Below are positions 1,209 to 18,036 of a stretch of 64,000 nucleotides of DNA, piece by piece. Within the stretch, counting starts at the first letter, position 1. Every line of letters starts with the position of its first letter. The notes under the pieces are model-generated. The model was not told the origin of the DNA. It searched no databases and worked only from the letters and a program-made list of their open reading frames with translations. This DNA comes from Natronoarchaeum philippinense (GTDB taxonomy: Archaea; Halobacteriota; Halobacteria; Halobacteriales; Natronoarchaeaceae): positions 1 through 64,000 of the forward strand of contig NZ_OBEJ01000004.1 in assembly GCF_900215575.1 (NCBI RefSeq), written 5' to 3'. Made by a program: the position numbers and the translations under genes.

Positions 1209-2177
1209 CTACTCCTCTGTGCCGTTGGTTGCTGCGAACTCGGCGATCGTCGTCCAGTCTGGGGGCGCCTCCATCGCACCAGTTGTCGTGGCTGAAAGCG
1301 CCGCAGACGCGTTTGCGAGGTCGACGATGCGACCCGGATCGGCCACGCCGCGGTCGAGTGCAGCGACCGTCGCGGCGACGAACGCGTCGCCGGCCCCGGT
1401 GGTGTCGACCACGTCCACGTCGAACCCGCTCCGTTCGACGAATGTGGGCTCCCACGGGGCGTCTTCGGTCGCAAACGCCGTCGCTCCTTCGCCACCGCGT
1501 GTGAGAAAGACCGTGTGCGGGCCATCCCGACACGCGGCTTCGCACCGCGCTTCGAGCGAATCCTGCTGGTAGCCAAGCTCGGCAAGCTCGTCGCCTGTCG
1601 CTTTGAGCACGTCTGCCATCCCGACCGCGTCTCGCAGCACGTCCGTCTCGTCGTCGTCCCACAGCTCCGGCCGCCAGTTCGGATCGAAGTAGACCGAACA
1701 GTCGGCCTCGCGTGCGCGTTCCAGCAGATCGAGCACGGCAGACCGGGCCGGCTCGGCAGCGAGCGCGACGCCGCCGACGTACACCCACTCGATCGCTTCG
1801 AGCGCGGTCGTCGGGACGGCGCCGGTTTCGAGTCGCGTGTCGGCGGTCCTGTCGCGGTAGAACGTGAACGACCGATCCCGTTCCTCGTCGTGAGCGACGA
1901 AGGCGAGCGTGGTCTTCGCGTCTGCATCCTGCTCGACGAAGCGGGTCGCCACACCGCGGTCCGCCAGCGTCTCGACGAGAAAGTCGCCGAAGGCGTCGTC
2001 GCCGACGCGGGTCCAGAACAGCGGATCGGCGTCGAACGCGGCGAGGCGTGCGGCGACGTTGGCGGGTGCACCCCCGGCGCGGCGCTGGAACGACTCCACG
2101 CCGTGAAGTTCGCCCGGCGTCTCGGGCAGCATATCGACCAGCGTCTCGCCGACGACGAGGAGCGAGCGCTCGCTCAT
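1209..2177 (-). CDS. PfkB-family carbohydrate kinase, probable fructokinase
   Basis: A 322-residue ribokinase-fold kinase. It has the N-terminal substrate motif GGAPANVAARLAAF and the C-terminal ATP/catalytic motif DTTGAGDAF with the catalytic Asp, so it should be active. The start LLVVGETLVDMLPE is typical of bacterial-type fructokinases, and the neighbouring beta-fructosidases make fructose the most likely substrate (product fructose 6-phosphate). Fructokinase versus 2-keto-3-deoxygluconate kinase cannot be settled by sequence alone; the N-terminus and context favour fructokinase. Its start overlaps the stop of the upstream GfcR gene by 4 bp, so the two are probably translationally coupled and co-regulated. 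Confidence 0.85.
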   Translation of the reverse strand: MSERSLLVVGETLVDMLPETPGELHGVESFQRRAGGAPANVAARLAAFDADPLFWTRVGDDAFGDFLVETLADRGVATRFVEQDADAKTTLAFVAHDEERDRSFTFYRDRTADTRLETGAVPTTALEAIEWVYVGGVALAAEPARSAVLDLLERAREADCSVYFDPNWRPELWDDDETDVLRDAVGMADVLKATGDELAELGYQQDSLEARCEAACRDGPHTVFLTRGGEGATAFATEDAPWEPTFVERSGFDVDVVDTTGAGDAFVAATVAALDRGVADPGRIVDLANASAALSATTTGAMEAPPDWTTIAEFAATNGTEE

Positions 2178-4250: not shown

Positions 4251-6512
4251 TTACTCGTATGCGCTATCAAGTTTCCACACCGCCAACTGTTCGATGGTCA
4301 CGTCTCCGTCGGCCCACGCTTCGATGCCGACCGATCGGTCGTCCTCCGGATACAGTCGCGTAGTGACGCTTTTCAGGCCGTTCACGTAGACTTCGAGCAT
4401 CGACCCGTCGAGGTACACGTGTAGGTCGAGATCCTCGCCGTCGAGGGCAATGTCGCCGCGATGGACCAGCGAGCTTCGCTCGGAGACTGCCGTTCGTGTT
4501 TCGATATTTCGAGTGCTGTGCTCGCGGTGGACGACGATCCGTCCCGTTCGCTCGTCGTAGTAGATGAAGGTCTCCTCGGAGCCATCGGGGGCAGCTCTGA
4601 CCCGCAGGCCGTATCGCTGGGCGCCGCCGGACGCCATCGTCGTTCGGATTTCAGCTGTCGAACTTCCAACGCCGGCGAGCTCGTCGTTTGCCGACGAAAG
4701 GTCGGCGTCCTCGACGTGCGCAAGCCGCTCGGCACGGAGCGTCTGGAGCTCCTCGATCGGCTCGATGCCGAGCCGGCCGTCGTCACGCAGGAACAGGTGG
4801 AGGGGGAGGCCGCCGTTGTGCGCCCAGCCGGCGTCGTAGTGGTCCTGCGGTCGGCGTCCGTCCTGTGCGATCGTGAACAGGAGGCTCCGGCCGGTCTCCG
4901 GGTCGACCATGCCGTGTGGCCCGGTGAAGTGAAAGTCGCCGTAGTCGATCAGGCGGGGCGCCTCGTGATCGGGATCGAACCGACACGCCGCGGCGTCCCA
5001 CTCGCCGAGCCAGTAGTACACCTCGACCTCGGCGGCCCCTTCGATCGGGCTGATGACGAGGACGTGCTTTTGAGCGCCCGTCTCGTCCTCACCGACCGGG
5101 AGCAAGACTGGGAGCTCCCAGACGTGACCGAGCTCCGGGTACTCCTCAGCGTCCGCGCTGTGGAGACAGCCACGGAACTCCCACTCGTCGAGGCTCGCGG
5201 ACTCGTAGATCAGTGCCGCACCGCCACGGCCGTCATCGAATCCGGAGCCGACGAGGCAGTACCACGTCCCGTCCTCCCGCCAGACGTACGGGTCACGGAA
5301 GTCGTTGTCCCGCAGCCCGATCGAATGGGGTCGCTCGATGGCCGCCTCGTCGGCCTGTCGCCACGACGCCAACTGAGGGTCGTCAGGATTCTCTGGCCGC
5401 GCCGTCACGACGCGCTGGTCCGGCGTGCGATCCATGTCGCCCGCCGTGAAGAGCACGACTGGCTCGCCGTCGGCGTCGTGCGTCGAGCCGCCAGACCAGA
5501 TGCCGTCGGGTGCGAGCCCGTCGATTTCGGGCGCAAGCGCTGGTCGGAGATGGCGCCAGTGGACGAGATCGTCGCTCACCCAGTGGCCCCAGTGGATGTT
5601 CCCCCAGTAGGGACCGCTCGGGTTGTGCTGGTAGAACAGGTGATACTGACCGTCGTGATACATCGGAGCGTGGGGCTCGTTCATCCAGTGGCCCGGCGGA
5701 ATCGGGTGGTACTGCGGCCGATGTCGGTCGTCGCTGTACCGGGACGGATCGAGGGCGATCGTCTCGTACTCCAGTTGTGCCTCCTCGGCCGACGACTCGT
5801 AGCGCGCCTCGATGTCGGCGTCCTCGAGGGCTCGGTCACTAATTCGAAGCTCGTCGATCGCGCCGGCAAATCTGTTCAATTCGAACGCGTCGCCGACGGA
5901 TTCTGTCTCGTTGTTCGCGCCGACCAGAACGGGAACGTCGGCAGGAACGACGGCGCTCTCGGCCTGGATCTGCTGCGACGCCACGCATTCACCGTCGACA
6001 TGGAGTGCGAGCACGCCGTCGTCACCGTCGAAGACCGCCGCGACGTGCGACCAGTCGTAGCGTGAGAGCGGGTCGTCTGCTCGGACAGACTCCCAAGAGT
6101 TGCCCAGCCCGACCTGCAACGAGCAGCGGCCGTGCCCGTCGAGCCCGAACTCGAATCCCCGGTCGTCGTCGATGGCGTGGTTGCTGACGATAGCAGAGAG
6201 GCGTTCCGACGCCCGCCCCTCGAACGCCCGAGGCGCGATCCACGCTTCAATCGAGAGCGCCGCTGTCTCGCCATCGAAGAGTTGCTCCTCGTGTGTGAGT
6301 CCCGTCGAGTAGCCGTCGAACAGGAGGGCGTGCCCATCGACGCCGTCGATCCAGCGCGGATCGCTATCCGCTTGGAATCGCGCGTCGTCGAACGCGTGCT
6401 CGACGGCGTTCCGGCGTCCGGACACGACCTCCTTGGCGGTCGATCCCGTCCCCTCGTCGAACGGCCAGTGTGCCACGGTGTCGGCTACGTCGCTCTCGTC
6501 ACGGTCGACCAT
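4251..6512 (-). CDS. GH32 glycoside hydrolase with N-terminal LamG domain; nucleophile Asp replaced by Glu
   Basis: 753 residues from the start chosen. Residues about 12-235 form a concanavalin/LamG-like domain, 265-560 the GH32 five-bladed propeller and the rest the GH32 beta-sandwich. There is no signal peptide, so it acts in the cytoplasm, on imported fructosides by inference. Landmarks are the nucleophile block WMNEPHAP (Glu279 where family members have the Asp of WMNDPNG), the stabiliser block FRDPYVW and the acid/base block HVWELPVL. The Asp-to-Glu change makes catalysis or specificity uncertain; a beta-fructosidase, levanase or fructan-modifying role are all possible. The start at 6512 is preferred because a TATA box (6535-6541) sits 26 bp upstream; a longer in-frame start at 6596 would lie beyond this promoter. 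Confidence 0.88.
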   Translation of the reverse strand: MVDRDESDVADTVAHWPFDEGTGSTAKEVVSGRRNAVEHAFDDARFQADSDPRWIDGVDGHALLFDGYSTGLTHEEQLFDGETAALSIEAWIAPRAFEGRASERLSAIVSNHAIDDDRGFEFGLDGHGRCSLQVGLGNSWESVRADDPLSRYDWSHVAAVFDGDDGVLALHVDGECVASQQIQAESAVVPADVPVLVGANNETESVGDAFELNRFAGAIDELRISDRALEDADIEARYESSAEEAQLEYETIALDPSRYSDDRHRPQYHPIPPGHWMNEPHAPMYHDGQYHLFYQHNPSGPYWGNIHWGHWVSDDLVHWRHLRPALAPEIDGLAPDGIWSGGSTHDADGEPVVLFTAGDMDRTPDQRVVTARPENPDDPQLASWRQADEAAIERPHSIGLRDNDFRDPYVWREDGTWYCLVGSGFDDGRGGAALIYESASLDEWEFRGCLHSADAEEYPELGHVWELPVLLPVGEDETGAQKHVLVISPIEGAAEVEVYYWLGEWDAAACRFDPDHEAPRLIDYGDFHFTGPHGMVDPETGRSLLFTIAQDGRRPQDHYDAGWAHNGGLPLHLFLRDDGRLGIEPIEELQTLRAERLAHVEDADLSSANDELAGVGSSTAEIRTTMASGGAQRYGLRVRAAPDGSEETFIYYDERTGRIVVHREHSTRNIETRTAVSERSSLVHRGDIALDGEDLDLHVYLDGSMLEVYVNGLKSVTTRLYPEDDRSVGIEAWADGDVTIEQLAVWKLDSAYE

Positions 6513-6541: not shown

Positions 6542-6601
6542 GATTCCTTTCGGCAGTCGAATCCACCGAGCTCGGACTAGCGGTTGCTGACCGCACAAAC
6601 T

Positions 6602-6609
6602 ACTATACT
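6602..6609 (+). promoter_or_regulatory. TATA box for TrmB-kinase fusion gene
   Basis: ACTATACT centred 27 bp before the ATG at 6632, giving a leaderless transcript. The 119 bp between the divergent ATGs at 6512 and 6632 hold both core promoters, so one operator here could control both genes. Confidence 0.6.
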
Positions 6610-6631
6610 CCTCTGGTCCATCGGCGAGTAC

Positions 6632-8863
6632 ATGAGCGGTTACGAGGACCTAGACGAATCGGAAATCCGCAACTCGTTGCAGCGACACGTCGACATGTCG
6701 GAGTACGAGTCGCAGGTGTATCTCGCTCTCGTACAGACTGGCAAGCAGTCGATGCGGGATCTATCTGAGACGAGTGGCGTCCCCAAACAACGCGTCTACG
6801 ACATCGTCGAGGAACTCAGAGAGCAGGGGTTCGTCGAACTCGACGACAGCTATCCCAAGAAAGCCTACGCGGTCGACCCGACGAAGACGCTCGGGCCGAT
6901 CCAGACGCACGTCGAGCAGGTCCAAGACGCGCTCGAAGAGTTCCACAAGTCGGTGTCCGATGTCGACAGCGGCGTCGCCCAGTTCCGGAACCGGTCGACG
7001 ATCGAGAAGTACATCACGGAACTGGTCGACAGCGCGGAGCGAACGATCTTCCTGATGACATCGATCGACCGGCTGCGGATCGTCGAGGACGCGCTGCGAA
7101 ACCACTCCGACGTGCAGATACGGGTCGTTCTCACGGGACTCGACGAGGGACACGTCGTCGACGACCGGATCGAACTGAACAGCCCGATTCGGGAGTTTGC
7201 CGACTACGTTCGGGGAACGGTTCGGAGCGAGCCGCTCGTCCTCAGCGTTGACCGGAGCGCGGGATTCTTCTGGCCGACCGCCGACAGCCCGCGACAGCGG
7301 CCGCGAGAAGGGTTTTACGTCACCGACGAGGATCTGTCGTTCCTGTTCGATCGGTTCCTCTCGGACACGGTCTGGCCGCTGGGCTATCCCGTCAATCCCG
7401 AACAGCGGCGCTCCACGTCGCTTCCCCAGCGGTACTACCGGATCCGTGACTGCCTTGCTGATCTCGAAGTGCTCACCGACTCCGTTCCCCTCCGGACGTT
7501 GACGGTTCGGTTCGAGGGGTACAACAACGTGTCCGGGGAGCAAATCACCCGAGACGGACGCCTCGCGGGCTTTTACGCCTCGGAGTTCGACGACCGCGCC
7601 TACCTCGAAGTCGACCTCGTCGAGGGCGACAGCGGAACCACCCGGACGGTGACGGTCGGCGGCTGGCACTCCCGCCGCGAGGATTTCATGGCGACGAGCA
7701 TCGAACTGGAGAAACACGAGGACTGGTCGGCCGAAGAGCTCGACGACGAAACGCTCGACCACATCGAGGCCTGCCGGAGAGAGCTCCCCGCCGAGATCGA
7801 CGCCGGCGATGCCATCGTGGGGTTCGACGGCTACATCGACTACATCCGGTCGCTTGTCGGCGAGCGAAAGAGTCCGCGGATGTACGACGAGATCAACGAG
7901 TTCGACACGCTGCGCGAGATGGTGACGAGGGCGTCAGCACAGGATAAGACGCTCCAGTTCGAGTGGGTCGAAAGCAAGCGACTACCGGGCGGACACACTG
8001 CACACGTCGGGCAGGTGCTCGATACGGTCGGCTACGACGCGCAGCTCGTCGGCTTCTTCGGCCAGCCGATCCGCGAGGAGTTCAGCGAGGTCTTCGAAGA
8101 GGACAATCTCCTCAGCCTCGGCCCGCCGACCGTGACGGAGTACCTGCAGTTCGGCGACGGAAAGATGCTGTTCACCGACTCGGGCGGCCATCAGGCACTG
8201 AACTGGGAGACGCTACGGGAGTACGTCCCGTTGGAGACGCTGGCCAACCGGCTCGACGGATCGGACATCGTGAGCATCGGTGGCTGGGCGCTCATTCCGG
8301 AGATATCGACGATCTGGGAAGGCATCTACGAGCAGGTGTTTCCGCGGCTGTCGTCGCCGCCGAACGACATCGTCGTCTGTACGAGCGACGTGGATCACCT
8401 GACCGAGACGACGCTACGTTCGGACCTAGAGTCGCTGGGCATCCTCGACGACGCCATCCCCGTGACGGTCGTGACGACGAGCGAGCAGGCGGCGCATCTG
8501 GGTGATGTTCTCCTGTCCGGTGAGCAGGGCAAACGTGCGCTCCAAGCCACCGCCGAATCGCTCCGGAACGAGATCGGTGTGTCGCGGTTCGCGGTGACAT
8601 CGGCGAAGGAGTCGGTCCTCGTCGGACCTGAGGGGAGCCAGCGGATCCGGTCGGCGCTGATTTCGGACCCGGCGGAGGAAGGAACGTTTGAGGACCACTT
8701 CAGCGCGGGCATCGCGCTGGGGCGTGCGGAATCGCTCTCGGATACGTCGACGCTCGCGCTCGGAAGTGCCGTGGCGAGTTATTTCAAGCAGCACCAAGAG
8801 ACGCCCTCGCTCTCGGAGATCCGGACGTTTCTGGACACGTACGAAGATCAGGGAGCAGCCTGA
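6632..8863 (+). CDS. TrmB-type regulator fused to a PfkB-like sugar-kinase domain
   Basis: 743 residues. Residues 10-85 form the winged HTH typical of TrmB (SMRDLSETSGVPKQRVYDIVEELREQGFVE). A coiled linker (about 90-112) follows, then a TrmB-like regulatory/sugar-binding region to about 370. From about 393 the chain reads as a ribokinase-fold kinase: AIVGFDGYIDYI, then LPGGHTAHVGQVLDTVGYDAQLVGFFG, and finally GTFEDHFSAGIALG at 684-697. In active PfkB kinases that last motif is GAGD; here the Asp (688) is kept but the glycine-rich anion hole is TFE. The domain may therefore bind sugar, nucleotide or sugar phosphate as a sensor rather than act as a good kinase. It stands alone on the plus strand, divergent from the GH32/LamG gene and facing the importer genes, and is the likely local regulator. 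The ATG at 6632 is chosen over an in-frame ATG at 6584 because of the TATA spacing. Confidence 0.85.
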   Translation: MSGYEDLDESEIRNSLQRHVDMSEYESQVYLALVQTGKQSMRDLSETSGVPKQRVYDIVEELREQGFVELDDSYPKKAYAVDPTKTLGPIQTHVEQVQDALEEFHKSVSDVDSGVAQFRNRSTIEKYITELVDSAERTIFLMTSIDRLRIVEDALRNHSDVQIRVVLTGLDEGHVVDDRIELNSPIREFADYVRGTVRSEPLVLSVDRSAGFFWPTADSPRQRPREGFYVTDEDLSFLFDRFLSDTVWPLGYPVNPEQRRSTSLPQRYYRIRDCLADLEVLTDSVPLRTLTVRFEGYNNVSGEQITRDGRLAGFYASEFDDRAYLEVDLVEGDSGTTRTVTVGGWHSRREDFMATSIELEKHEDWSAEELDDETLDHIEACRRELPAEIDAGDAIVGFDGYIDYIRSLVGERKSPRMYDEINEFDTLREMVTRASAQDKTLQFEWVESKRLPGGHTAHVGQVLDTVGYDAQLVGFFGQPIREEFSEVFEEDNLLSLGPPTVTEYLQFGDGKMLFTDSGGHQALNWETLREYVPLETLANRLDGSDIVSIGGWALIPEISTIWEGIYEQVFPRLSSPPNDIVVCTSDVDHLTETTLRSDLESLGILDDAIPVTVVTTSEQAAHLGDVLLSGEQGKRALQATAESLRNEIGVSRFAVTSAKESVLVGPEGSQRIRSALISDPAEEGTFEDHFSAGIALGRAESLSDTSTLALGSAVASYFKQHQETPSLSEIRTFLDTYEDQGAA

Positions 8864-8975: not shown

Positions 8976-9257
8976 TCAGCGGCTCGTGACCACGAGGATG
9001 CTCCAGAGCGCGATGATGAGCAGGAGACACATACCGAGCACGACTGCCGTCGCCCCGATCAGCCCCGAAATCTGGTGGGCGAGTTTCGTACTGTCGGTCA
9101 TCGGACCGGCCGCAACGTCGATCACAGCCCCGATCGTCGCCAGAACGACGGTCGCTCCGAACGTGTACACCAGCGCCTGATACTGGTCGAGCAGGATGCG
9201 TAGCCGACTGCGTTCGCGGGACTGCTCCGTGCCCCACTCGGCGTCGTCCACGCTCAT
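8976..9257 (-). CDS. Small two-helix membrane protein coupled to the ABC ATPase
   Basis: 93 residues with an acidic cytoplasmic N-terminus and two strong hydrophobic segments (about residues 27-50 and 60-90). Its start overlaps the stop of the double ATPase gene by 4 bp (ATGA), so it is the last gene of the importer operon. I recognise no family. The coupling suggests an accessory role with the transporter, but that is inference from position only. Confidence 0.7.
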   Translation of the reverse strand: MSVDDAEWGTEQSRERSRLRILLDQYQALVYTFGATVVLATIGAVIDVAAGPMTDSTKLAHQISGLIGATAVVLGMCLLLIIALWSILVVTSR

Positions 9258-11545
9258 CGGTCGTCCCTCCCTTCGTCGCCGGAGCGGTCGTCTGCGACGC
9301 GCTCTCCGCCGTCGGGGGCAGCCCGCTCTTCGGGGGGCTGGTCGGGGCCGAAGATGCTCTCATCGCCGTCGGCGCCGTCGAGCGGTTCGCTGTCCCAGTA
9401 GGGGTGATCGCCGTCACACTCTCGGAAGCAGGCGATCTCGTGGTCGTTGCCCGAACTCCCGTCTGCCGGGTCGAGCGACGGACACTCTTGGGTGCAGTGT
9501 TCGCGCGCTTTCGGACAGCGCGTCTGGAACGGACAGCCGCTCGGCGGGTCGACGGGATCCGGAATGTCGATGCTTCGGACCGGAAGCTCTCCCCCGCCGT
9601 CGTCGGGATCGATGTCCGCGGTCGACCAGCGGAGGATCTTCGTGTAGGGATGACGCGGGTTCTGGATGATCTCCTCGGCGGGCCCGATCTCGACGACGTT
9701 CCCGAGGTACATCACGCCGATCCGCCCGTCGACCTTCCCGGCGAGATACCGCGCGTTCTCGAAGTTGTGCGAGATGAACAGATAGGACGTGTCGAACCGC
9801 TGTTGCAGTTCGAGCATCAGGTCCATCATCTCGACGCGCAGGGACACGTCGAGCGCGCTCACCGCCTCGTCGGCGAGGATGAGGTCGGGGTTCATAAACA
9901 GCGCGCGAACGAGCGCGACGCGTTGTTTCTCGCCGCCTGAAAGCTGGTGGGGGTAGCGCTCGGCGTAGTCTCGCGCCGGCGAGAGCCCGACGTAATCGAG
10001 CATCGCAATGATCCGTTCCCGGCGGTCCTTGAACGTGAGTTCCTCTTGGGCCTGCTTGAGCGGCGTCTCCAGAATCTCCTGTACGCTCCGATTCGGGTTC
10101 AGCGAGCTGCCGGGGTCCTGATGGATGATCTGAAGCGACGAGCGGATCTCGTCGTAGACATCGTCGCCGTCGTCACGGGCGTCCCAGACATCGGTGCCGC
10201 GGTGGGAAACGGTGCCGTCGGTCGGCCGTTGGACGCCGATCGCCGTCTTCCCGAGCGTCGTCTTGCCACAGCCGGACTCGCCGACCAGCGCGACCACGTC
10301 GTTCTCGTAGATGTCGAGGTCGACATCGTTGACGGCGTACACCGTGTCGGTGTCACCGGTGAGTTTCGACCGAAGCCCCGAACTCTGTTCGAAGTGGACG
10401 TCCACGTCATCGAGCGAGAGCACCGGATCCTCGGACTGGTGTCCGGTGACGGCGTCCGTTTCGACGTCTTCGAGACTCTCCGTCGGGTTGAAGGGGATCT
10501 CTTCGCGTGCCTGCTCCCAGTGATGACACGCCGTTTCGTGATCCTCGCCGGCCTCGAAGAACGGCGGATCTTCCGAGCGACACTCGTCGGTCGCAAGGGG
10601 ACACCGGGACGCGTAGCGACAGCCCGCCGCCGTGTCGACGGGATCGGGCGCCTGTCCCTCGATCGGCGTCATGGCATCCAGCGGCGTTTCGAGATTCGGG
10701 ACGGCGTTGAGCAGATCCCGCGTGTAGGGGTGTGCAGGGTCGCGCAGGATCTCGTCGGTCGGCCCGACCTCGGCCATCTGGAAGGCGTACAGGACGCCGA
10801 TGCGGTCGGCCAACCCGGCGACCAGCGGGAGGTCGTGAGTGATAAAGACGACCGTGAGGTCGTAACGCTCCTGTAGGTCTTCGAGGAGGCTCAGGATCGA
10901 CCGCTGCATCAGCAGGTCCAGCGCTGCGGTCGGCTCGTCCATCACCAGCACTCTCGGTTTCAGCACGAGCGAGAGCGCGATGAGCGCGCGCTGTTGCATC
11001 CCGCCGCTCAGTTCGTGGGGGTACGCGTCGAGCACACGATCGGGGTCTAGGTGAAGTTCCCGTAACAGTTGGCGGGCGTGGTCCATCCCGTCTTTGAGGT
11101 TGTGGTTGTGGGCCTTCAGCGTCTCTGTGAAGTGGTCACGGATCCGCTGGGTCGGGTTGAACGAACTCATCGCCCCTTGGAACACCATCGAAATCTCCTT
11201 CCAGCGATACTGCTTCAGCAGATCTTGGTCGGCGTTTGCGATGTTGACCGGATCGCCGTTTTCGGGGTGGTAGATCACCTCTCCGGAAAGTTGGCCCGGA
11301 TCGACCACCGCGTCCAGCAGCGCCGAGGCGAACATCGACTTCCCGGAGCCGGATTCCCCGACGACGCCGAGGATCTCGTTCTGCCGGATGTCCATTGACA
11401 CGTTGTCCAGAACGCGCGATGTCCCGCGTTCCATCTCGAACTCGACCGAGGCGTTTCGCACCTCTATGATCACGTCCTGATCGGCCGATTCCGTGTCGGT
11501 TGTGCGCTGTGCGTCGTGTTCGTGCGTGTCGTAATCGGAACTCAT
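9254..11545 (-). CDS. Opp/Dpp-type ABC transporter, two ATPase domains in one chain
   Basis: 763 residues made of two ABC ATPases in tandem (OppD-OppF order). The first has Walker A GESGSGKS, signature LSGGMQQRALIAL and Walker B VLVMDEPTAALD. The second has GESGCGKTTLGK, LSGGEKQRVALVRAL and LILADEAVSALD. Each is followed by the Opp-type C-terminal Cys-rich region (CRYASRCPLATDEC; CPFQTRCPKAREHC) that may bind a metal or Fe-S cluster. It energises uptake with the two permeases upstream. A strong Shine-Dalgarno GGAGG (11551-11555) 6 bp before the ATG at 11545 sets the start. Family-5 importers are named for peptides, but in haloarchaea several sit in sugar loci; context here points to fructo-oligosaccharides. 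Confidence 0.92.
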   Translation of the reverse strand: MSSDYDTHEHDAQRTTDTESADQDVIIEVRNASVEFEMERGTSRVLDNVSMDIRQNEILGVVGESGSGKSMFASALLDAVVDPGQLSGEVIYHPENGDPVNIANADQDLLKQYRWKEISMVFQGAMSSFNPTQRIRDHFTETLKAHNHNLKDGMDHARQLLRELHLDPDRVLDAYPHELSGGMQQRALIALSLVLKPRVLVMDEPTAALDLLMQRSILSLLEDLQERYDLTVVFITHDLPLVAGLADRIGVLYAFQMAEVGPTDEILRDPAHPYTRDLLNAVPNLETPLDAMTPIEGQAPDPVDTAAGCRYASRCPLATDECRSEDPPFFEAGEDHETACHHWEQAREEIPFNPTESLEDVETDAVTGHQSEDPVLSLDDVDVHFEQSSGLRSKLTGDTDTVYAVNDVDLDIYENDVVALVGESGCGKTTLGKTAIGVQRPTDGTVSHRGTDVWDARDDGDDVYDEIRSSLQIIHQDPGSSLNPNRSVQEILETPLKQAQEELTFKDRRERIIAMLDYVGLSPARDYAERYPHQLSGGEKQRVALVRALFMNPDLILADEAVSALDVSLRVEMMDLMLELQQRFDTSYLFISHNFENARYLAGKVDGRIGVMYLGNVVEIGPAEEIIQNPRHPYTKILRWSTADIDPDDGGGELPVRSIDIPDPVDPPSGCPFQTRCPKAREHCTQECPSLDPADGSSGNDHEIACFRECDGDHPYWDSEPLDGADGDESIFGPDQPPEERAAPDGGERVADDRSGDEGRDDR

Positions 11546-11606
11546 GGTTGCCTCCTCGCGTGTGGCGAGTAGCTTGCTGGTGATACTCGATGCACTGGTG
11601 CGGCCG

Positions 11607-12605
11607 TCATTTCGACTCCCCTCCTTCGTGCCGATCACGTACTCTGACGTTGACGACCCGATCGAGACCCTGCGAGAGCATGATGAGCCCCCACGACAGG
11701 AGCACGATCGTCAGAAGTGGCCACAGCACTGTGTAGTACAGCTCCGACGACGTGACCGCGCCAGCGTCGTACGCTTTCTGCAGCATCACTCCCCAGTTGA
11801 CTCCCTCGACCGGGAGGACTCCGAGGAAGTACAGCGCCACGGAGTTGAAGATCACGCCGCGACCCGACATCACGAAGTTGACGAGGATGAGCGGGAGTAG
11901 CTGGGGCGTAATGTCTTTGCGCATGATCGTGCCCGAGGAAACGCCCATGATCCGCGACGCTTCGACGTACTCCTCCTCGCGGATCGTGAGCACCTGCGAT
12001 CGAAGCGATCGAGCCGTTCCGGCCCACGCGTTGATCGACACGAGGATGCCAACGAGAATCGGGCTAGTGGGTTCCCAGATCGCCCCAACGATGATGATCA
12101 ACGGCAGCCCCGGAATCATCATGGCCGTGTCGGTTAGCGTCATCATGATCTCGTCGACGCGACCGCCCTTGTAGCCCGAGATGATCCCGACGGCCGCGCC
12201 GATACCCGTCGCAAACACCGCACCGCCGATCAGCATCAACAGCATGTCCGGCGTCGCGTGGATCAGCACTGCGAGGATGTCCTGCCCGAACTGGTCGGTC
12301 CCGAGAGGGTTCTCGCCGGCGTACGACGGGCTGTCCCACTTGCCCCCGTCTTGGTACGTCGGAGGAGCGGTGGTGTACACACCGACTGTCCCAGCATAGA
12401 CGAACCCGAGCAGGACGAGGAATCCAGCCTTGAATCGCCAGTCCGACCACGCCAACAGGAACGTCTCCCAGTACCCCCGGAACTGCTTGGCGAGCCGGTC
12501 CCAGCGAGAGACGTCCTCGACAGAGACGCTCCCGAGCGGGATGTCCGACGACTGCACGTCCCCGCCGTCGGCCATCGGATTCCGTTCCTCGTCAGTAGGC
12601 TTCAC
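11607..12605 (-). CDS. ABC transporter permease, DppC/OppC type
   Basis: About 332 residues. A cytoplasmic N-terminus is followed by about six membrane helices. The OppC N-terminal region ends in the typical loop ENPLGTDQFGQDILAVLIHATPDML, and the EAA coupling loop reads EEEYVEASRIMGVSSGTIM. It pairs with the DppB-type permease to form the importer channel. The GTG at 12605 is chosen because a perfect anti-16S site (12609-12618) sits just upstream; the in-frame GTG at 12614 overlaps that site. The start overlaps the end of the upstream permease gene by 14 bp, a normal operon arrangement. Confidence 0.9.
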   Translation of the reverse strand: MKPTDEERNPMADGGDVQSSDIPLGSVSVEDVSRWDRLAKQFRGYWETFLLAWSDWRFKAGFLVLLGFVYAGTVGVYTTAPPTYQDGGKWDSPSYAGENPLGTDQFGQDILAVLIHATPDMLLMLIGGAVFATGIGAAVGIISGYKGGRVDEIMMTLTDTAMMIPGLPLIIIVGAIWEPTSPILVGILVSINAWAGTARSLRSQVLTIREEEYVEASRIMGVSSGTIMRKDITPQLLPLILVNFVMSGRGVIFNSVALYFLGVLPVEGVNWGVMLQKAYDAGAVTSSELYYTVLWPLLTIVLLSWGLIMLSQGLDRVVNVRVRDRHEGGESK

Positions 12606-13602
12606 TCTGATCACCTCCTGCGCCCGCTCGTGGGTCGATGAGTCCGTACGTTAGGTCTGCGACCGAGACGGCGATGACCACCGCGACGGAGATGATGAGG
12701 AAACCACCCATCATCAGCGGGTAGTCGCGGGCCGCGATCGCGTCGAAGAAGTAGAATCCGACACCGGGGTATCGGAAGATGTCTTCGAGGATAATCGAAC
12801 CGCCGAAGATGAACCCGATCTGGATGACGAAGCCGGTGTAGATCGGAAGAATGGCGTTCCGGGCCACGTACTGGTTTGCGATGCGACTCGTGGGGAGCAT
12901 CCGCAGTCGCGCGACGCGGATGTAGTCCTCGCCGAGGATTCTGATGCTGTTCGACCGCATTGCGAGCGTCTGCACGCCGAACCCGGTGACGATGACCGAA
13001 AGCATCGGCAAGGTCGCGTGTCGCAACAGATCGAGGATGTAGGGAATGTTAAAGCCCGGCGTGACGCCGAGACTCGTCCGGCCGGAGAGCGGATACATCC
13101 CCAGATTGGTGACGAAAACCGCAATGAGGATGATCGCCGCCACGTAGTACGGCACCGAGTTCAGTACGATGGCGATAGTGCTGATCGCCGAATCGAAGCG
13201 GCTGCCCTCCTTGTAGGCCAGCAGTGCGCCGAGCGAAATGGCGATGGCGAACGTCACGAGCATCGCCGTCCCGAGGACGAACAGCGTCCACGGGATCGCC
13301 TCCGCGTAGATCTGTGCGACAGGCTCGTTGTAGTACGTCGACTCGCCGAGATCGCCCTGCAGGACGTTCGTCACGTAGTTCCAGTACTGGACGTAAATCG
13401 GCTCGTCCGGTTTGACGCCGACGTAGGCCTGAACCAACTGGTCGACCTGTTCGGCGGGCATATCCGGATTCTGCTTGCGGAGCTTCGCGCGCATGTAATC
13501 CACGGGCCCACCGGGCATCAGTCGCGTGAGACCGAACGTGATCGAAATGACCAGTACCAGCGTCACGAACGACCGTATCACGCGTTTCACGTAGTAGTTC
13601 AC
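12592..13602 (-). CDS. ABC transporter permease, DppB/OppB type
   Basis: About 336 residues with six membrane helices. The N-terminus is the DppB pattern (RVIRSFVTLVLVISITFGLTRLMPGGPVD), and the coupling loop reads LGEDYIRVARLRMLPTSRIANQYVARNA. It is the first of the two channel subunits. The GTG at 13602 is preferred since GAGGTG (13609-13614) lies 6 bp upstream. A TATA-like element around 13678-13686 in the 100-bp gap after the GH32 gene may give the permease-ATPase operon its own promoter. Confidence 0.9.
   Translation of the reverse strand: MNYYVKRVIRSFVTLVLVISITFGLTRLMPGGPVDYMRAKLRKQNPDMPAEQVDQLVQAYVGVKPDEPIYVQYWNYVTNVLQGDLGESTYYNEPVAQIYAEAIPWTLFVLGTAMLVTFAIAISLGALLAYKEGSRFDSAISTIAIVLNSVPYYVAAIILIAVFVTNLGMYPLSGRTSLGVTPGFNIPYILDLLRHATLPMLSVIVTGFGVQTLAMRSNSIRILGEDYIRVARLRMLPTSRIANQYVARNAILPIYTGFVIQIGFIFGGSIILEDIFRYPGVGFYFFDAIAARDYPLMMGGFLIISVAVVIAVSVADLTYGLIDPRAGAGGDQSEAY
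12609..12618 (-). promoter_or_regulatory. Full-length Shine-Dalgarno site deciding the permease start
   Basis: Minus-strand GGAGGTGATC, fully complementary to the 3' end of 16S rRNA, followed after three bases by GTG at 12605-12603. Such complete sites are uncommon in haloarchaea, where most first genes are leaderless; here the gene is internal to an operon. Confidence 0.7.
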
Positions 13603-13702
13603 GCGCACCACCTCTCGATCGTATTTTTCACTCTCATAGTGCTAGCAGTTGTGACAGGCGTACCCAAATGTCGAAGTTGTATATAGTTAACGATCATCTG
13701 TA

Positions 13703-15928
13703 TCAGTCCAGACCCGCTTCGGTACCGAAGGAGGCTTCGGCCTCTGAATTGCGGACAGCCGCCTGATTGAGCGTCCAGACGTCGCCGGAGTGGAGATCGA
13801 CATTCCCACCAATCGCTCGAAGCGCGACACCGGTGCTGTCGGGACGAGTCGGATAGATACGGCTGCTCACGCAGGTGCGGCCGTTGACGAACACTTCCAC
13901 GACGGATGCGTCGACGAGGACGCGCAGGTTCACGACGCCGTCGTCCGTCTGGGGTGCCTCGTCGATAGATTGTGGCTCAGCGCTCGCGGCGTCTGACAGG
14001 CTGGAGTCATCACGGTCGACGATCAATTGGTCGTCATCCGTGTAGCGGATCGGCGTCCGTTCCTCGCCGTCGTCCGAACGGGCGACGACGAGCTCGAACG
14101 CGTCGGCGTCGCCGAGTTCGAACTCGAGTTTGATCTCGAGCGCGTCGCCGCTTGCCTCGTCGCAAAGCAGCGGTTCGTCAGGAGCGAGCACCTGACCGTC
14201 CACCGCCGTTCGATCATCACGAAGTCGTGCGATTTCCTCCGCGGGCCGTACTTCGAGCGAGCCGTCCGCCGAGAGCGAGAGCGACCGCGGGACCGACATG
14301 ACGCCGGACCAGCCGGCGTCCCACTGTGCGGAGTCGCTGCGGTCCTCACGGATCCAACCCCACGAGAGGTACCGGTCGCCACCGTCGGAAATCGACTGCG
14401 CAGCGTAGTAGTTCCCGTGATCGAGCGTCCCGGAGTCCTCCCGGTCGAAGGACTCGCCGTCGAACGTCCCGAGGAAGTACGCGACCTTGTCGTAGTTCGA
14501 AACCTGCAGCATCTGTCTGTCGCCGAAATCGAGCAGTTCGGGACACTCCCAGATCGGTCCGTCCTCCTCGCGGTCGCCGATCAGAATCGGGCCGACATAG
14601 GACCAGTCCAGCAGGTCGTCGGACCGGTACAGCAGCGCCGTCCCGCCGCCGTCCTCGGTCCCGGAGCCGATGAGGTGGTACCAAGTGCCGTCCTGCTTCC
14701 AGACATCGTGGTCCCGGAACTCGGCGTTCCAGTCGTCGTTCGAGAGGATGGTCGGCTGTTCGGGGGGCTCATCGATGATCGGGTTTCGCTCGGACTTCAC
14801 CCAGCTGTTCAGATCGCTGTCAGCCGCGCGAGCAAGGCAGGGGAGTTGGTCACGGCCGTCGCCGCCGGTGTAGACGAACGTTGGAACGCCATCGTCGTCG
14901 AGCACCGTACAGCCGGACCAGCAGCCGTGCTGGTCGGGACCGCCAACGTCGGGTTCCAGAGCGACGGAGCGGTCCTCCCAGTGGACGAGGTCCTCGCTCA
15001 CCGCGTGTCCCCAGTGGATCGAGCCGTGATAGGGACCGGCCGGATTGTACTGGTAGAACAGATGGTACTCCCCGTCGTGCTTGACGAGGCCGTTCGGGTC
15101 GTTCATCCAGTTTGCCGGCGGTGCGAAGTGATACGACGGTCTGTGCGGATCGTCCTGTAGATCTGCCCGGATCTGGGCCAGTTCCTCGCCGGTTCGAGGG
15201 CGAGCGTACGCCGCAGTTTCGCCCTCGGCGACGCGTTCGATCGCGCCGCGCAGGACGTTTTGTAGCGGTGCGCGGTACTCCGAAGGCACTCCATCGAACG
15301 AGAAATGCTGTCCGATGCCGACGGCGGTGCCGGCTCCGACCTGCCAGCCGATCACACTGTTTTCCTGTGGAATGTCCTCGTCGCCGACCGTCGCACTTGC
15401 GAGCACTGTCCCATGCTTGGGGACCTGCTTCTCGTATGCGACTTGCGGAGACGCTTCGCTTCGGGAGGGCTGCGTATGAACGCGAGTCCCGTCGCAGTAG
15501 TCGAACACCGTATCTTCGGTAAATCGCGATCCGATCAAGAATCCAGCGGGGCGTTGACCCCACTTGTGGACTGGTTTGTACGTCTCGTCGACGAGATCAG
15601 GCGATCGTGGGTCGATCTCCAACGCCTCGACGGCAGTGAGTCCGTACAGACTCAAGAGGAGCCCGCCGCCGTCGTCGAGATACGATGTCACGGCGTCGGC
15701 TGCCCCAGCCGGGAGCGTATCGCCCGAGAGAGGAGAATCACGGTGCCACCAGAGCACATCGAACGATGATAGCGAGATCCCGTCGGCCAGCTCGTCGAGC
15801 AGCACGCGATCGACAGTCGCAGTTTCCCGTGCGGCGTCGAGCGCCGCACGTTGCTCATCCGTCAACTCTCCCGAGGTTAGAAACCCCAGGCGCGGGGAGT
15901 CTTTCAACTCCTCGTCCTCAACTTGCAT
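13703..15928 (-). CDS. GH32 beta-fructosidase with N-terminal amidotransferase-fold-like domain
   Basis: 741 residues. The GH32 part has the nucleophile block WMNDPNG (residues 274-280, Asp277), FRDHDVW in place of FRDP for the transition-state stabiliser, and the acid/base block IWECPELLDF. It should hydrolyse terminal beta-fructosides such as sucrose, inulin- or levan-type oligosaccharides. Residues 1-240 are an extra alpha/beta domain resembling class I glutamine-amidotransferase/ThuA-like folds (LGFLTSGELT..., FDVLWWHRDS, YLDDGGGLLLSLYG) with no obvious catalytic Cys triad. There is no signal peptide, so hydrolysis is inferred to be intracellular after import. The start at 15928 is supported by a TATA box 23 bp upstream. 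It stands between the binding-protein gene and the permease genes. Confidence 0.9.
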   Translation of the reverse strand: MQVEDEELKDSPRLGFLTSGELTDEQRAALDAARETATVDRVLLDELADGISLSSFDVLWWHRDSPLSGDTLPAGAADAVTSYLDDGGGLLLSLYGLTAVEALEIDPRSPDLVDETYKPVHKWGQRPAGFLIGSRFTEDTVFDYCDGTRVHTQPSRSEASPQVAYEKQVPKHGTVLASATVGDEDIPQENSVIGWQVGAGTAVGIGQHFSFDGVPSEYRAPLQNVLRGAIERVAEGETAAYARPRTGEELAQIRADLQDDPHRPSYHFAPPANWMNDPNGLVKHDGEYHLFYQYNPAGPYHGSIHWGHAVSEDLVHWEDRSVALEPDVGGPDQHGCWSGCTVLDDDGVPTFVYTGGDGRDQLPCLARAADSDLNSWVKSERNPIIDEPPEQPTILSNDDWNAEFRDHDVWKQDGTWYHLIGSGTEDGGGTALLYRSDDLLDWSYVGPILIGDREEDGPIWECPELLDFGDRQMLQVSNYDKVAYFLGTFDGESFDREDSGTLDHGNYYAAQSISDGGDRYLSWGWIREDRSDSAQWDAGWSGVMSVPRSLSLSADGSLEVRPAEEIARLRDDRTAVDGQVLAPDEPLLCDEASGDALEIKLEFELGDADAFELVVARSDDGEERTPIRYTDDDQLIVDRDDSSLSDAASAEPQSIDEAPQTDDGVVNLRVLVDASVVEVFVNGRTCVSSRIYPTRPDSTGVALRAIGGNVDLHSGDVWTLNQAAVRNSEAEASFGTEAGLD

Positions 15929-15946
15929 ACCTACTACACCGGGCAC

Positions 15947-15954
15947 CTTATACA
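15947..15954 (-). promoter_or_regulatory. TATA box of GH32 gene
   Basis: Minus-strand TGTATAAG about 23 bp before the ATG at 15928. The same octamer precedes the binding-protein gene, which suggests matched promoters within the locus. Confidence 0.55.
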
Positions 15955-16143
15955 AAAACGTTTTGGAAATATAAAACAACTATCCGTAAAGAGGCTCATA
16001 ACGACCTGAAACGCAGATATAGAAATCTTGGTTGCTATTTTTATATTCTAGTCGGGGCTATCAAGCCGCTATACCGGAGAGCTGCTCAAGCCCGATGGCA
16101 AGCAGCGTGGTCGAGCAGCCGACGTAGCTATCCGGAACGGCGA

Positions 16144-18000
16144 TCACTCGCTGGGAGTCGGGTACCCCTGTCGGACAGGCCAATCCTGCACGCTCGGCGT
16201 CTGCATGATCGAACTGTCGGCGTCGGGCCAGCTCCAGTCCCCAGTGTCGTAGTACTCGGAGGCGATGTACAGCGTCCACGGGCCCCAAGAGGCGTCCATC
16301 CAGTTCCAGAACCACGCGAGCTCTTGGATGTGCGGGCGCTGTTCCTCTTTGGACTGACCGCGAGCGATTGCCTGCAGGTGATCTCTGAGGTTGACCTCCC
16401 GGAGTTCACCCTCGGGCTCCCCGATCGGCGGGACTTCCATGATGAACTCGCTCGTTCCTTCACCGTTCCACTCAGAAGCGGACGGAACGCCGAGGGGATA
16501 CGCGGTCACCCACGCTTCGTTGATGAGGTGGTTCTGGAACCCTTCGTACGGGAGCGGTGCAGACTGTCCGACCCACCAGTTTGTGAGGTCGTAGTTTCGC
16601 TGCGGGATCGTCTGGCCGAAGTACGTCGTAGCTTCGACGATGATAGCTTCGGTCTCGACGCCGAAGTTGCTCAGGATTCGCGAGGCAGTCTGGGTTCGGT
16701 TGCTGTGGAACCCGGCGTCTCGGAAGGTGAGCGTGAACTGCTCGCCGTTGGGCTTGTACCACGTGCCGTCCTCCCGAGTGAACCCTTCACCGCGGAGGAG
16801 TTCGGCGGCGCGCTCGGTCCCGCCGTCGAACTGCATGAACTGGTCTTTGACGTCGCCGAGCCACTCGTTGATGAGCGGCTGAGACATCCCCGCCGAGAGG
16901 TTGACCGCCTCCTTGTTGACATCGGAGAGCGGTAGGTTCTGCATCAGCGTATCGTGGCGCGCGCGGAGCACGTTCGAGAGCGCCCAGCGCACTCGCTGGT
17001 TGTCCAGCGGCGCCCGTCGGCAGTTGAACGAAATCGACTCGCCGCTGTGGCTGTAGAATCTGACGGACTCGTAGTTGTCCGGGATCTGGTTGGCCTGCGA
17101 CGAGTTGAACGCCACGTTGTGAAGCGCGTCGACTTCGTTGTTGCGTAGCGATCGGAGTTTCTCTTGGGGCCCCTGAAGCGGCAGCGCCTCCATCGTGTCG
17201 AATTCGATGTCGTCTGCCGAAATGTGGGGGTTCTCGTAGTCCTCGTACTTTTCGAGGAGCAACTGATTGGCGGTCGCCTCAGACGGTATGAACGGGCCGT
17301 TGCCGAGCCCCTTCTCTTTGACCTCCTCGAGCGAAAAGCTCGTTTCGGCGAGCTCCTGAAGGATGGCACTCCGATCCTCGTCAGATTCGGCGCTTTCCAT
17401 CCGTTCGAGGTAGTCTCTGAATACGTCGAATTTGAACTTCCAGTTGGTCGGCGCGTCGCCCATCCCGAACAGGGCGTTCTCGAATAGGCGAGTGTCGATC
17501 TTCTCAGCAAGCGTCATCTCGACTGTGTGCTCGCCCGTCTGTTCGACGCCGTCGAGGAACTCCCAGACGCCGTCGTTGTTCACCTTGCGCCAGCGCATCT
17601 GGCCGACGAAGTCCTCGGCTGTGTACGAGTCGCCGTTGAACCACGTGTAGCCATCGTAGAGATCGAACCGGACGGTCGCTCCCGACTGCACCGTCGAGGG
17701 GTACTCCCAGTTCTCGACGAGCAGGGGCACCCACTGCTCCTCGTCGGCGTACCATCGGGCGCCCTGTTCGAAGATGATCTTGTTCAGGACGCCAGGTGTC
17801 TGTTGCCCGTAGGGGTTGTAGTTGATCTGGTTCGGCTGGTTGCCCATCTCGACGCGAAGTCGGCTCGAATCGGAGCTGTCACTGCCGCTTCCGAAACAGC
17901 CGGCGAGAGAGGCCGCACCAGCGCCTGCGATACCTTTCAGCACCTGCCGACGGTGGGAGGCTGCACGCTCCCCACCGTCGCCGGGGTTGTCGGCTGACAT
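16144..18000 (-). CDS. ABC transporter substrate-binding lipoprotein, family 5, Tat-exported
   Basis: About 618 residues. Residues 17-40 carry a Tat signal (SHRRQVLKGIAGAGAASL) ending in the lipobox SLAGC, so the mature protein is lipid-anchored outside the membrane. The rest is a family-5 (Opp/Dpp) extracellular binding protein: ...QINYNPYGQQTP..., VPLLVENWEY, YTAEDFVGQMRW. It delivers substrate to the permeases encoded downstream. The start at 18000 is chosen because the upstream in-frame ATG at 18036 lies inside the TATA box (18028-18035). It heads a run of same-strand genes (binding protein, GH32, permeases, ATPase). The ligand is inferred from the GH32 neighbours to be a fructo-oligosaccharide or sucrose. 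Confidence 0.9.
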   Translation of the reverse strand: MSADNPGDGGERAASHRRQVLKGIAGAGAASLAGCFGSGSDSSDSSRLRVEMGNQPNQINYNPYGQQTPGVLNKIIFEQGARWYADEEQWVPLLVENWEYPSTVQSGATVRFDLYDGYTWFNGDSYTAEDFVGQMRWRKVNNDGVWEFLDGVEQTGEHTVEMTLAEKIDTRLFENALFGMGDAPTNWKFKFDVFRDYLERMESAESDEDRSAILQELAETSFSLEEVKEKGLGNGPFIPSEATANQLLLEKYEDYENPHISADDIEFDTMEALPLQGPQEKLRSLRNNEVDALHNVAFNSSQANQIPDNYESVRFYSHSGESISFNCRRAPLDNQRVRWALSNVLRARHDTLMQNLPLSDVNKEAVNLSAGMSQPLINEWLGDVKDQFMQFDGGTERAAELLRGEGFTREDGTWYKPNGEQFTLTFRDAGFHSNRTQTASRILSNFGVETEAIIVEATTYFGQTIPQRNYDLTNWWVGQSAPLPYEGFQNHLINEAWVTAYPLGVPSASEWNGEGTSEFIMEVPPIGEPEGELREVNLRDHLQAIARGQSKEEQRPHIQELAWFWNWMDASWGPWTLYIASEYYDTGDWSWPDADSSIMQTPSVQDWPVRQGYPTPSE

Positions 18001-18027
18001 ACCAATGCCACCTTCTGGTTTGTCATA

Positions 18028-18035
18028 CTTATACA
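18028..18035 (-). promoter_or_regulatory. TATA box of the binding-protein gene
   Basis: Minus-strand TGTATAAG about 31 bp before the ATG at 18000, identical to the octamer in front of the GH32 gene. Confidence 0.55.
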
Positions 18036-18036
18036 T

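Follow-up and report, generated by a model that had tools for sequence, protein, structure and literature searches.

A TrmB regulator fused to a degenerate ketohexokinase domain, a probable sugar sensor beside GH32 genes in Natronoarchaeum philippinense

The window, by which we mean the whole stretch of DNA that was analysed, comprises positions 1-64,000 of the forward strand of contig NZ_OBEJ01000004.1 (assembly GCF_900215575.1) of Natronoarchaeum philippinense. Its fructan cluster includes a single reading frame in which a TrmB regulator is joined to a domain derived from ketohexokinase (KHK), and the genes and features considered here are the following:

1212..2177, minus strand: separate PfkB kinase, fructokinase-like (PF00294, 1.6e-55), with intact DTTGAGD and NxxE motifs
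2177-2809: GfcR regulator gene (HTH and phosphoribosyltransferase-like), in the same fructan cluster as the fusion
4254..6512, minus strand: GH32 gene (LamG and GH32N/C; PF00251, 1.8e-61), divergent from the fusion
6632..8863, plus strand: TrmB-KHK fusion gene (stop included; coding 6632-8860), 743 aa, single frame
6677..6880, plus strand: TrmB winged-HTH DNA-binding domain, residues 16-83 (PF01978, 1.7e-18)
6983..7711, plus strand: TrmB effector-binding domain, residues 118-360 (PF11495, 2.6e-22)
7739..8842, plus strand: ketohexokinase-derived (ribokinase-fold) domain, residues 370-737 (PF25270 Khk, 3.2e-105)
8477..8488, plus strand: degenerate NxxE motif TSEQ, residues 616-619 (canonical N[RKQ]xE)
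8684..8695, plus strand: degenerate anion-hole/catalytic motif TFED, residues 685-688 (canonical S[AS]GD), catalytic Asp688 retained
9257..13611, minus strand: transporter operon, from sequence inspection and synteny with the related loci L076 and L077
9257-11638, minus strand: fused ATPases, and 11610-12614 and 12595-13611, minus strand: permeases (roles predicted on the same basis)
13706..15979, minus strand: second GH32 gene of the cluster (PF00251, 2.3e-77)
16147..18036, minus strand: family-5 solute-binding protein of an Opp-type transporter (PF00496, 2.8e-26)

In Pfam, the N-terminal HTH of the fusion passed PF01978 with 66.6 bits (cut-off 25.6), the effector domain passed PF11495 with 79.7 bits (cut-off 22.2) and the C-terminal half passed PF25270, 'prokaryotic ketohexokinase', with 352.8 bits (cut-off 35). 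The union of TrmB and kinase fold proposed in a sequence-only reading of this DNA is thereby borne out, with all three domains in one 743-aa frame. The HTH was aligned with those of TrmB 3QPH and TrmBL2, and G344 and E350 of the effector domain align with the VGG...IED segment of P. furiosus TrmB, whose G320/E326 pair is reported as sugar-binding (residue table, PMC4158304). The nearest NCBIfam model for the N-terminal half was haloarchaeal TrmB NF047392, at 121.4 bits and below its 500-bit cut-off; the TrmB half thus represents a paralogous subfamily and is not the orthologue. Pfam scans of the genome and of the protein did not place the fusion among the matches to PF00294 (PfkB), and a PDB sequence search returned no relative of its KHK half. 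Because AlphaFold modelled the whole protein poorly over 394-521, fold claims rest instead on a domain-only model of the KHK half (pLDDT 81.7). The top Foldseek match of this model was 1VM7, a T. maritima ribokinase, and it superposed on ribokinase 3IN1 with a VIA-align Z of 27.0 and an rmsd of 3.4 over 296 residues. The KHK half is predicted to have a ribokinase-type three-dimensional fold, as the earlier reading had supposed, but it descends specifically from a ketohexokinase, as opposed to PfkB kinases at large or an ADP-dependent kinase.

When 392 genomes of the order were scanned, stand-alone KHKs of ~370-400 aa appeared together with long frames of ~740-820 aa, which had Khk scores of 310-390 bits (576 in one, G437) and read out as TrmB-KHK fusions. 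A search for the two-domain fusion elsewhere in haloarchaea had been suggested beforehand, and it does recur: 17 distinct loci across Halobacteria carry a TrmB fusion with a degraded kinase, and a rarer form has an intact active site. Carriers identified in a named scan were Haloferax gibbonsii ATCC 33959 (two copies), Halogeometricum limi, Halomicroarcula rubra, Haloarcula amylovorans, Haloarcula pellucida, Halogranum amylolyticum and the MAG QS_4_62_28; in the same scan Halospeciosus flavus had a fusion with the intact motif. A single-protein scan of the genome contigs gave no match, but an alignment-based scan did find the fusions. The closest relatives of the window fusion, L076 and L077 (86-87% identical) and L079 (57%), come from other families of the order, and L076 and L077 share the whole gene order of the window cluster; a transfer of the cluster would be a likely explanation. 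A fusion created by sequencing error was excluded, because this two-domain frame is found in many independent genomes, these three among them.

Two observations concern the structure of individual loci. In L073/L074 (G659:C3), a stretch of ~19.8 kb that includes the fusion cluster is present in two copies, 99.87% identical, on a single 363-kb contig, representing either a recent duplication or an assembly overlap, and one of the copies (L073) has a broken fusion frame. At the cluster edge of L076 (1-2754) and L077 (1-2790) there is a very long GH32 frame (~1420 aa open, two GH32N matches).

The KHK half of the window fusion has neither of the intact motifs of the family. S[AS]GD was present in all 25 stand-alone haloarchaeal KHKs compared, within the segment TTS[AS]GDHFNAG, and the corresponding segment of the fusion is EGTFEDHFSAG. 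The alteration to TFED at residues 685-688 had been noticed before, though measured against GAGD, which is not the motif of this family; the anion-hole Gly is lost and D688 kept. The second lost motif, NxxE replaced by TSEQ at 616-619, was absent from that account. We take N616/E619 and G687/D688, by motif, to correspond to N187/E190 and G254/D255 of ribokinase. The anion-hole Gly687 was found in 25/25 stand-alone KHKs and in both full-length intact fusions, versus 0/17 degraded fusions, in which the position is occupied by Asp (10), Glu (6) or Ile (1) and is acidic in 16/17. Glu619 of NxxE, the Mg/phosphate motif, was likewise present in 25/25 stand-alone KHKs versus none of the 17 degraded fusions (15 Gln, 1 His, 1 Asp), and the catalytic Asp688 in 25/25 versus 7/17 (otherwise 7 Glu, 2 Ala, 1 Asn). 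That the KHK half of the degraded fusions is a pseudokinase is well supported by these sequence comparisons; in the clade of the window fusion, which has lost Gly687 and Glu619 but kept Asp688, residual kinase activity is possible because of that retained residue.

The gene neighbourhood of the degraded fusions was equally distinctive. The genome search gave 15 degraded fusions once a near-identical duplicate had been set aside, and 14 of them had a GH32 gene within 10 kb, compared with 4/41 stand-alone KHKs (Fisher 7e-9, a descriptive value, since the loci are related and the counts are not independent events) and 0/3 intact-type fusions. With L086 and L089 added the count becomes 16/17, so that the association is close to, but short of, the constant one that had been asked about; the one degraded fusion without a GH32 nearby, L070, has an ABC transporter gene and a DUF2961 gene next to it. 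GH32 is the divergent neighbour in 13 of the 17 (in L067 a short ORF lies between), which places the fusion where a local regulator would sit. The separate PfkB at 1212-2177, whose closest NCBIfam model is fructokinase at a score below the cut-off, lies near genes for glucose-6-phosphate isomerase and GfcR, and with an intact kinase at hand a second one would be dispensable in the window cluster. The GfcR encoded at 2177-2809 is another enzyme-derived sensor in the same cluster. Other fusion clusters carry a CUT1-type transporter (solute-binding protein, permease and MalK-type ATPase), whereas at 9257-18036 of the window the GH32 genes are paired with an Opp/family-5 transporter, which suggests uptake of fructo-oligosaccharides by a transporter of the peptide class.

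Inspection of the intergenic regions yielded three candidate regulatory elements:

6594..6614, plus strand: promoter block CACAAACTACTATACTCCTCT upstream of the fusion, identical in the window, L076 and L077, with diverged flanks
13627..13643, minus strand: weaker candidate operator with 2 mismatches, upstream of the permease operon, identical in sequence in L076
18245..18261, minus strand: candidate operator, a perfect TTCAC-N7-GTGAA palindrome upstream of the solute-binding protein gene, perfect in L076 and L077 too

The 21-base block is a candidate core promoter and/or operator. One-mismatch copies of TTCAC-N7-GTGAA were found at GH32 starts in L078 and the H. rubra group; in L069, L072 and L075 they precede the ATPase gene, and in L079 the permease and fusion genes. 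A gap of 7 gave 21 intergenic matches with at most one mismatch, versus 2-7 for gaps of 3-6 and 8-11, and the exact sequence occurs 5 times in the window's genome, versus 0 for the reversed control. The four other exact sites are L092-L095 (G000 C1 183690, 791120 and 827581; C2 275631). The candidate resembles the TGM of TrmBL1, TATCAC-N5-GTGATA (PMC4158304). No operator-like site with fewer than 4 mismatches was found in the intergenic region between the divergent GH32 gene and the fusion in the window, and a search of the window for the H. rubra-type operator TCACAACTATCGTGA gave only chance-level matches. We infer that TTCAC-N7-GTGAA is the operator of the fusion, although a different regulator, for instance the nearby GfcR, may be the one that uses it.

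Taking together the architecture, the loss of two catalytic motifs, the conservation and the gene neighbourhood, all legible in the sequences themselves, we consider it probable (roughly 70%) that the protein is a TrmB regulator with a pseudo-ketohexokinase whose sugar side has been kept as a ligand-binding sensor for a fructan-derived sugar. The ligand and the direction of regulation are inferred. Imported fructo-oligosaccharide or sucrose would give rise to fructose or fructose phosphate, which would occupy the pseudokinase pocket, while a second sugar might fill the TrmB pocket. The ligand-bound dimer would then change its grip on operators near the GH32 and transporter promoters and so switch the fructan-use cluster, and phosphoryl transfer would be left to separate kinases such as the intact PfkB. 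The sensor idea of the sequence-only reading survives in part: the fusion is real, its kinase is degenerate, and its association with GH32 and its conserved sugar-side residues are present; the idea does not extend to all TrmB-KHKs, some of which have an intact active site.

Residues expected to bind sugar are conserved in both halves of the window fusion: G344/E350 in the TrmB half and D403, G453, G454 and H458 in the KHK half, the latter taken by motif to be D16, G41-G42 and N46 of ribokinase. D403, G453 and G454 are kept in 17/17 degraded fusions and H458 in 16/17. This near-invariance argues against a KHK half that serves only as a structural or dimerisation module and leaves all sensing to the TrmB half, an alternative we regard as unlikely even though stand-alone haloarchaeal KHK is a homodimer (PMC11519228) and the TrmB pair is kept in the window. 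The TrmB Glu equivalent to E350 is moreover lost in several fusions (e.g. L066, L068, L069 and L071), a pattern as if sensing had there moved to the KHK half. The sugar-side invariants R430, R451, A504 and E506 are lost in the degraded fusions, which probably means a remodelled pocket, one that may not accept fructose. A wholesale loss of the ATP side with retention of the sugar side was considered but not upheld as a general trend: on average across all invariant columns, retention is 57% in the N-terminal part and 53% in the C-terminal part of the domain; the contrast between the two sides holds only for the named motif residues.

It is also conceivable, but quite improbable, that the fusion is a bifunctional trigger enzyme, in which the KHK half continues to phosphorylate fructose, if in an unusual way, and its turnover is coupled to regulation. 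The retention of D688 in the window clade would fit such an enzyme, as would the sister fusions L064 and L065, which have an intact active site. These lie inside operons encoding a solute-binding protein, permease, fusion, ATPase, zinc alcohol dehydrogenase and DeoC-family aldolase, and a third intact-type fusion, L080 (kinase part shortened by a frame break), lies inside an operon with a solute-binding protein and two permeases. Such operons resemble the mannitol/sorbitol pathway of H. hispanica, in which KHK phosphorylates the fructose that dehydrogenases produce (PMC11519228). In these polyol-type operons an active kinase would have a purpose, while fructan clusters have less need of one, and the existence of the intact forms means that not every TrmB-KHK is a dead sensor. 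For the degraded fusions, however, both catalytic motifs are lost in 17/17, an acidic anion-hole residue should repel the gamma-phosphate, the catalytic Asp itself is gone from 10/17, and the window cluster already has its intact PfkB.

The KHK half of the degraded fusions is under strong purifying selection. Between the window fusion and L076/L077, dN/dS was 0.08 in the KHK half, like the 0.07-0.08 of the TrmB half, which argues against a decaying relic; in other fusion pairs the KHK half gave 0.11-0.25. The replacements are themselves conserved in the degraded fusions, acidic at 687 and Gln at 619. Although the duplicated copy L073 has a broken frame, an artefactual or decaying fusion without maintained function can be dismissed, given its recurrence in many genomes, a dN/dS of ~0.08 in both halves and the conserved synteny.

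On the KHK-domain tree, built without the motif columns, the 17 degraded fusions formed one clade (99/100), with the full-length intact fusions L064 and L065 placed elsewhere among the stand-alone enzymes; a single clade of all fusions was not rejected (AU p 0.13). On the tree of TrmB halves, 13 degraded and 3 intact-type fusions grouped together (100/100) and were separate from 30 other TrmBs taken from the same genomes (the unfused G444 protein not being among them). In 195 genomes scanned with a single fused TrmB half as query, the remaining fused halves scored 298-450 bits, one unfused relative (G444) 210 bits and everything else <123. Because degraded and intact forms share a single clade of TrmB halves and the fused halves outscore the unfused ones, the simplest reading suggested by the sequences is one fusion event followed by loss of catalysis in fructan clusters. 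The KHK tree requires one change each for G687 and E619 and five for D688, indicating that the first losses were early and that the Asp was lost repeatedly later. The G444 protein (L134 427-2616, G444:C89; L157), which among unfused proteins comes nearest to the TrmB half of the fusion, adjoins a PfkB-like kinase of 323 aa with GSTD in place of the GAGD motif. Transposase-like ORFs lie alongside, and the regulator and kinase are perhaps a parallel split pair. More tentatively, and at somewhat less than even odds, a single fusion may have left an active bifunctional form that persists in polyol operons, with its descendants in fructan clusters being dead two-pocket sensors that read both TrmB and KHK-pocket signals.

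The ROK repressors NagC, Mlc and XylR and yeast Gal3 are sugar kinases turned transcriptional sensors, but they derive from ROK and GHMP kinases rather than the ribokinase fold and have no TrmB half. The principle of a kinase turned sensor is already known; the TrmB-KHK architecture is a new form of it. The suspicion that it had no characterised precedent held up, as the literature searched on TrmB-sugar kinase fusions and pfkB pseudokinase regulators contained no description of it. Haloarchaeal KHKs (HVO_1812, HAH_1078, rrnAC0343; PF25270) share the domain family of the C-terminal half but stand alone with NxxE and S[AS]GD intact, whereas the window fusion is joined to TrmB and has lost both. 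They are ATP-dependent homodimers that make fructose-1-phosphate and are only distantly related to eukaryotic KHK (PMC11519228), and HVO_1812 is the KHK orthologue of H. volcanii (PMC8305020). TrmB and TrmBL1 have the same HTH and effector domain with the G320/E326 pair, and a response of TrmBL1 to fructose has been reported (PMC4158304), but known TrmBs stop after the effector domain and the TrmB halves of the fusions form their own clade. Haloarchaeal GfcR likewise joins an enzyme-derived domain to an HTH and acts in sugar catabolism, although its HTH and enzyme fold are different.

For annotation, these results mean that kinase activity does not follow from a PF25270 match or from the name ketohexokinase. 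Culturable haloarchaea contain the plain enzyme, the fused enzyme-regulator and the pseudokinase-regulator side by side, and one carrier, Haloferax gibbonsii, is related to H. volcanii, a genetic model. How an enzyme evolves into a sensor and how TrmB gains a signal thereby become directly testable. If the more tentative reading above is true, the TrmB-KHK proteins would be a living series from enzyme to regulator within one protein family.
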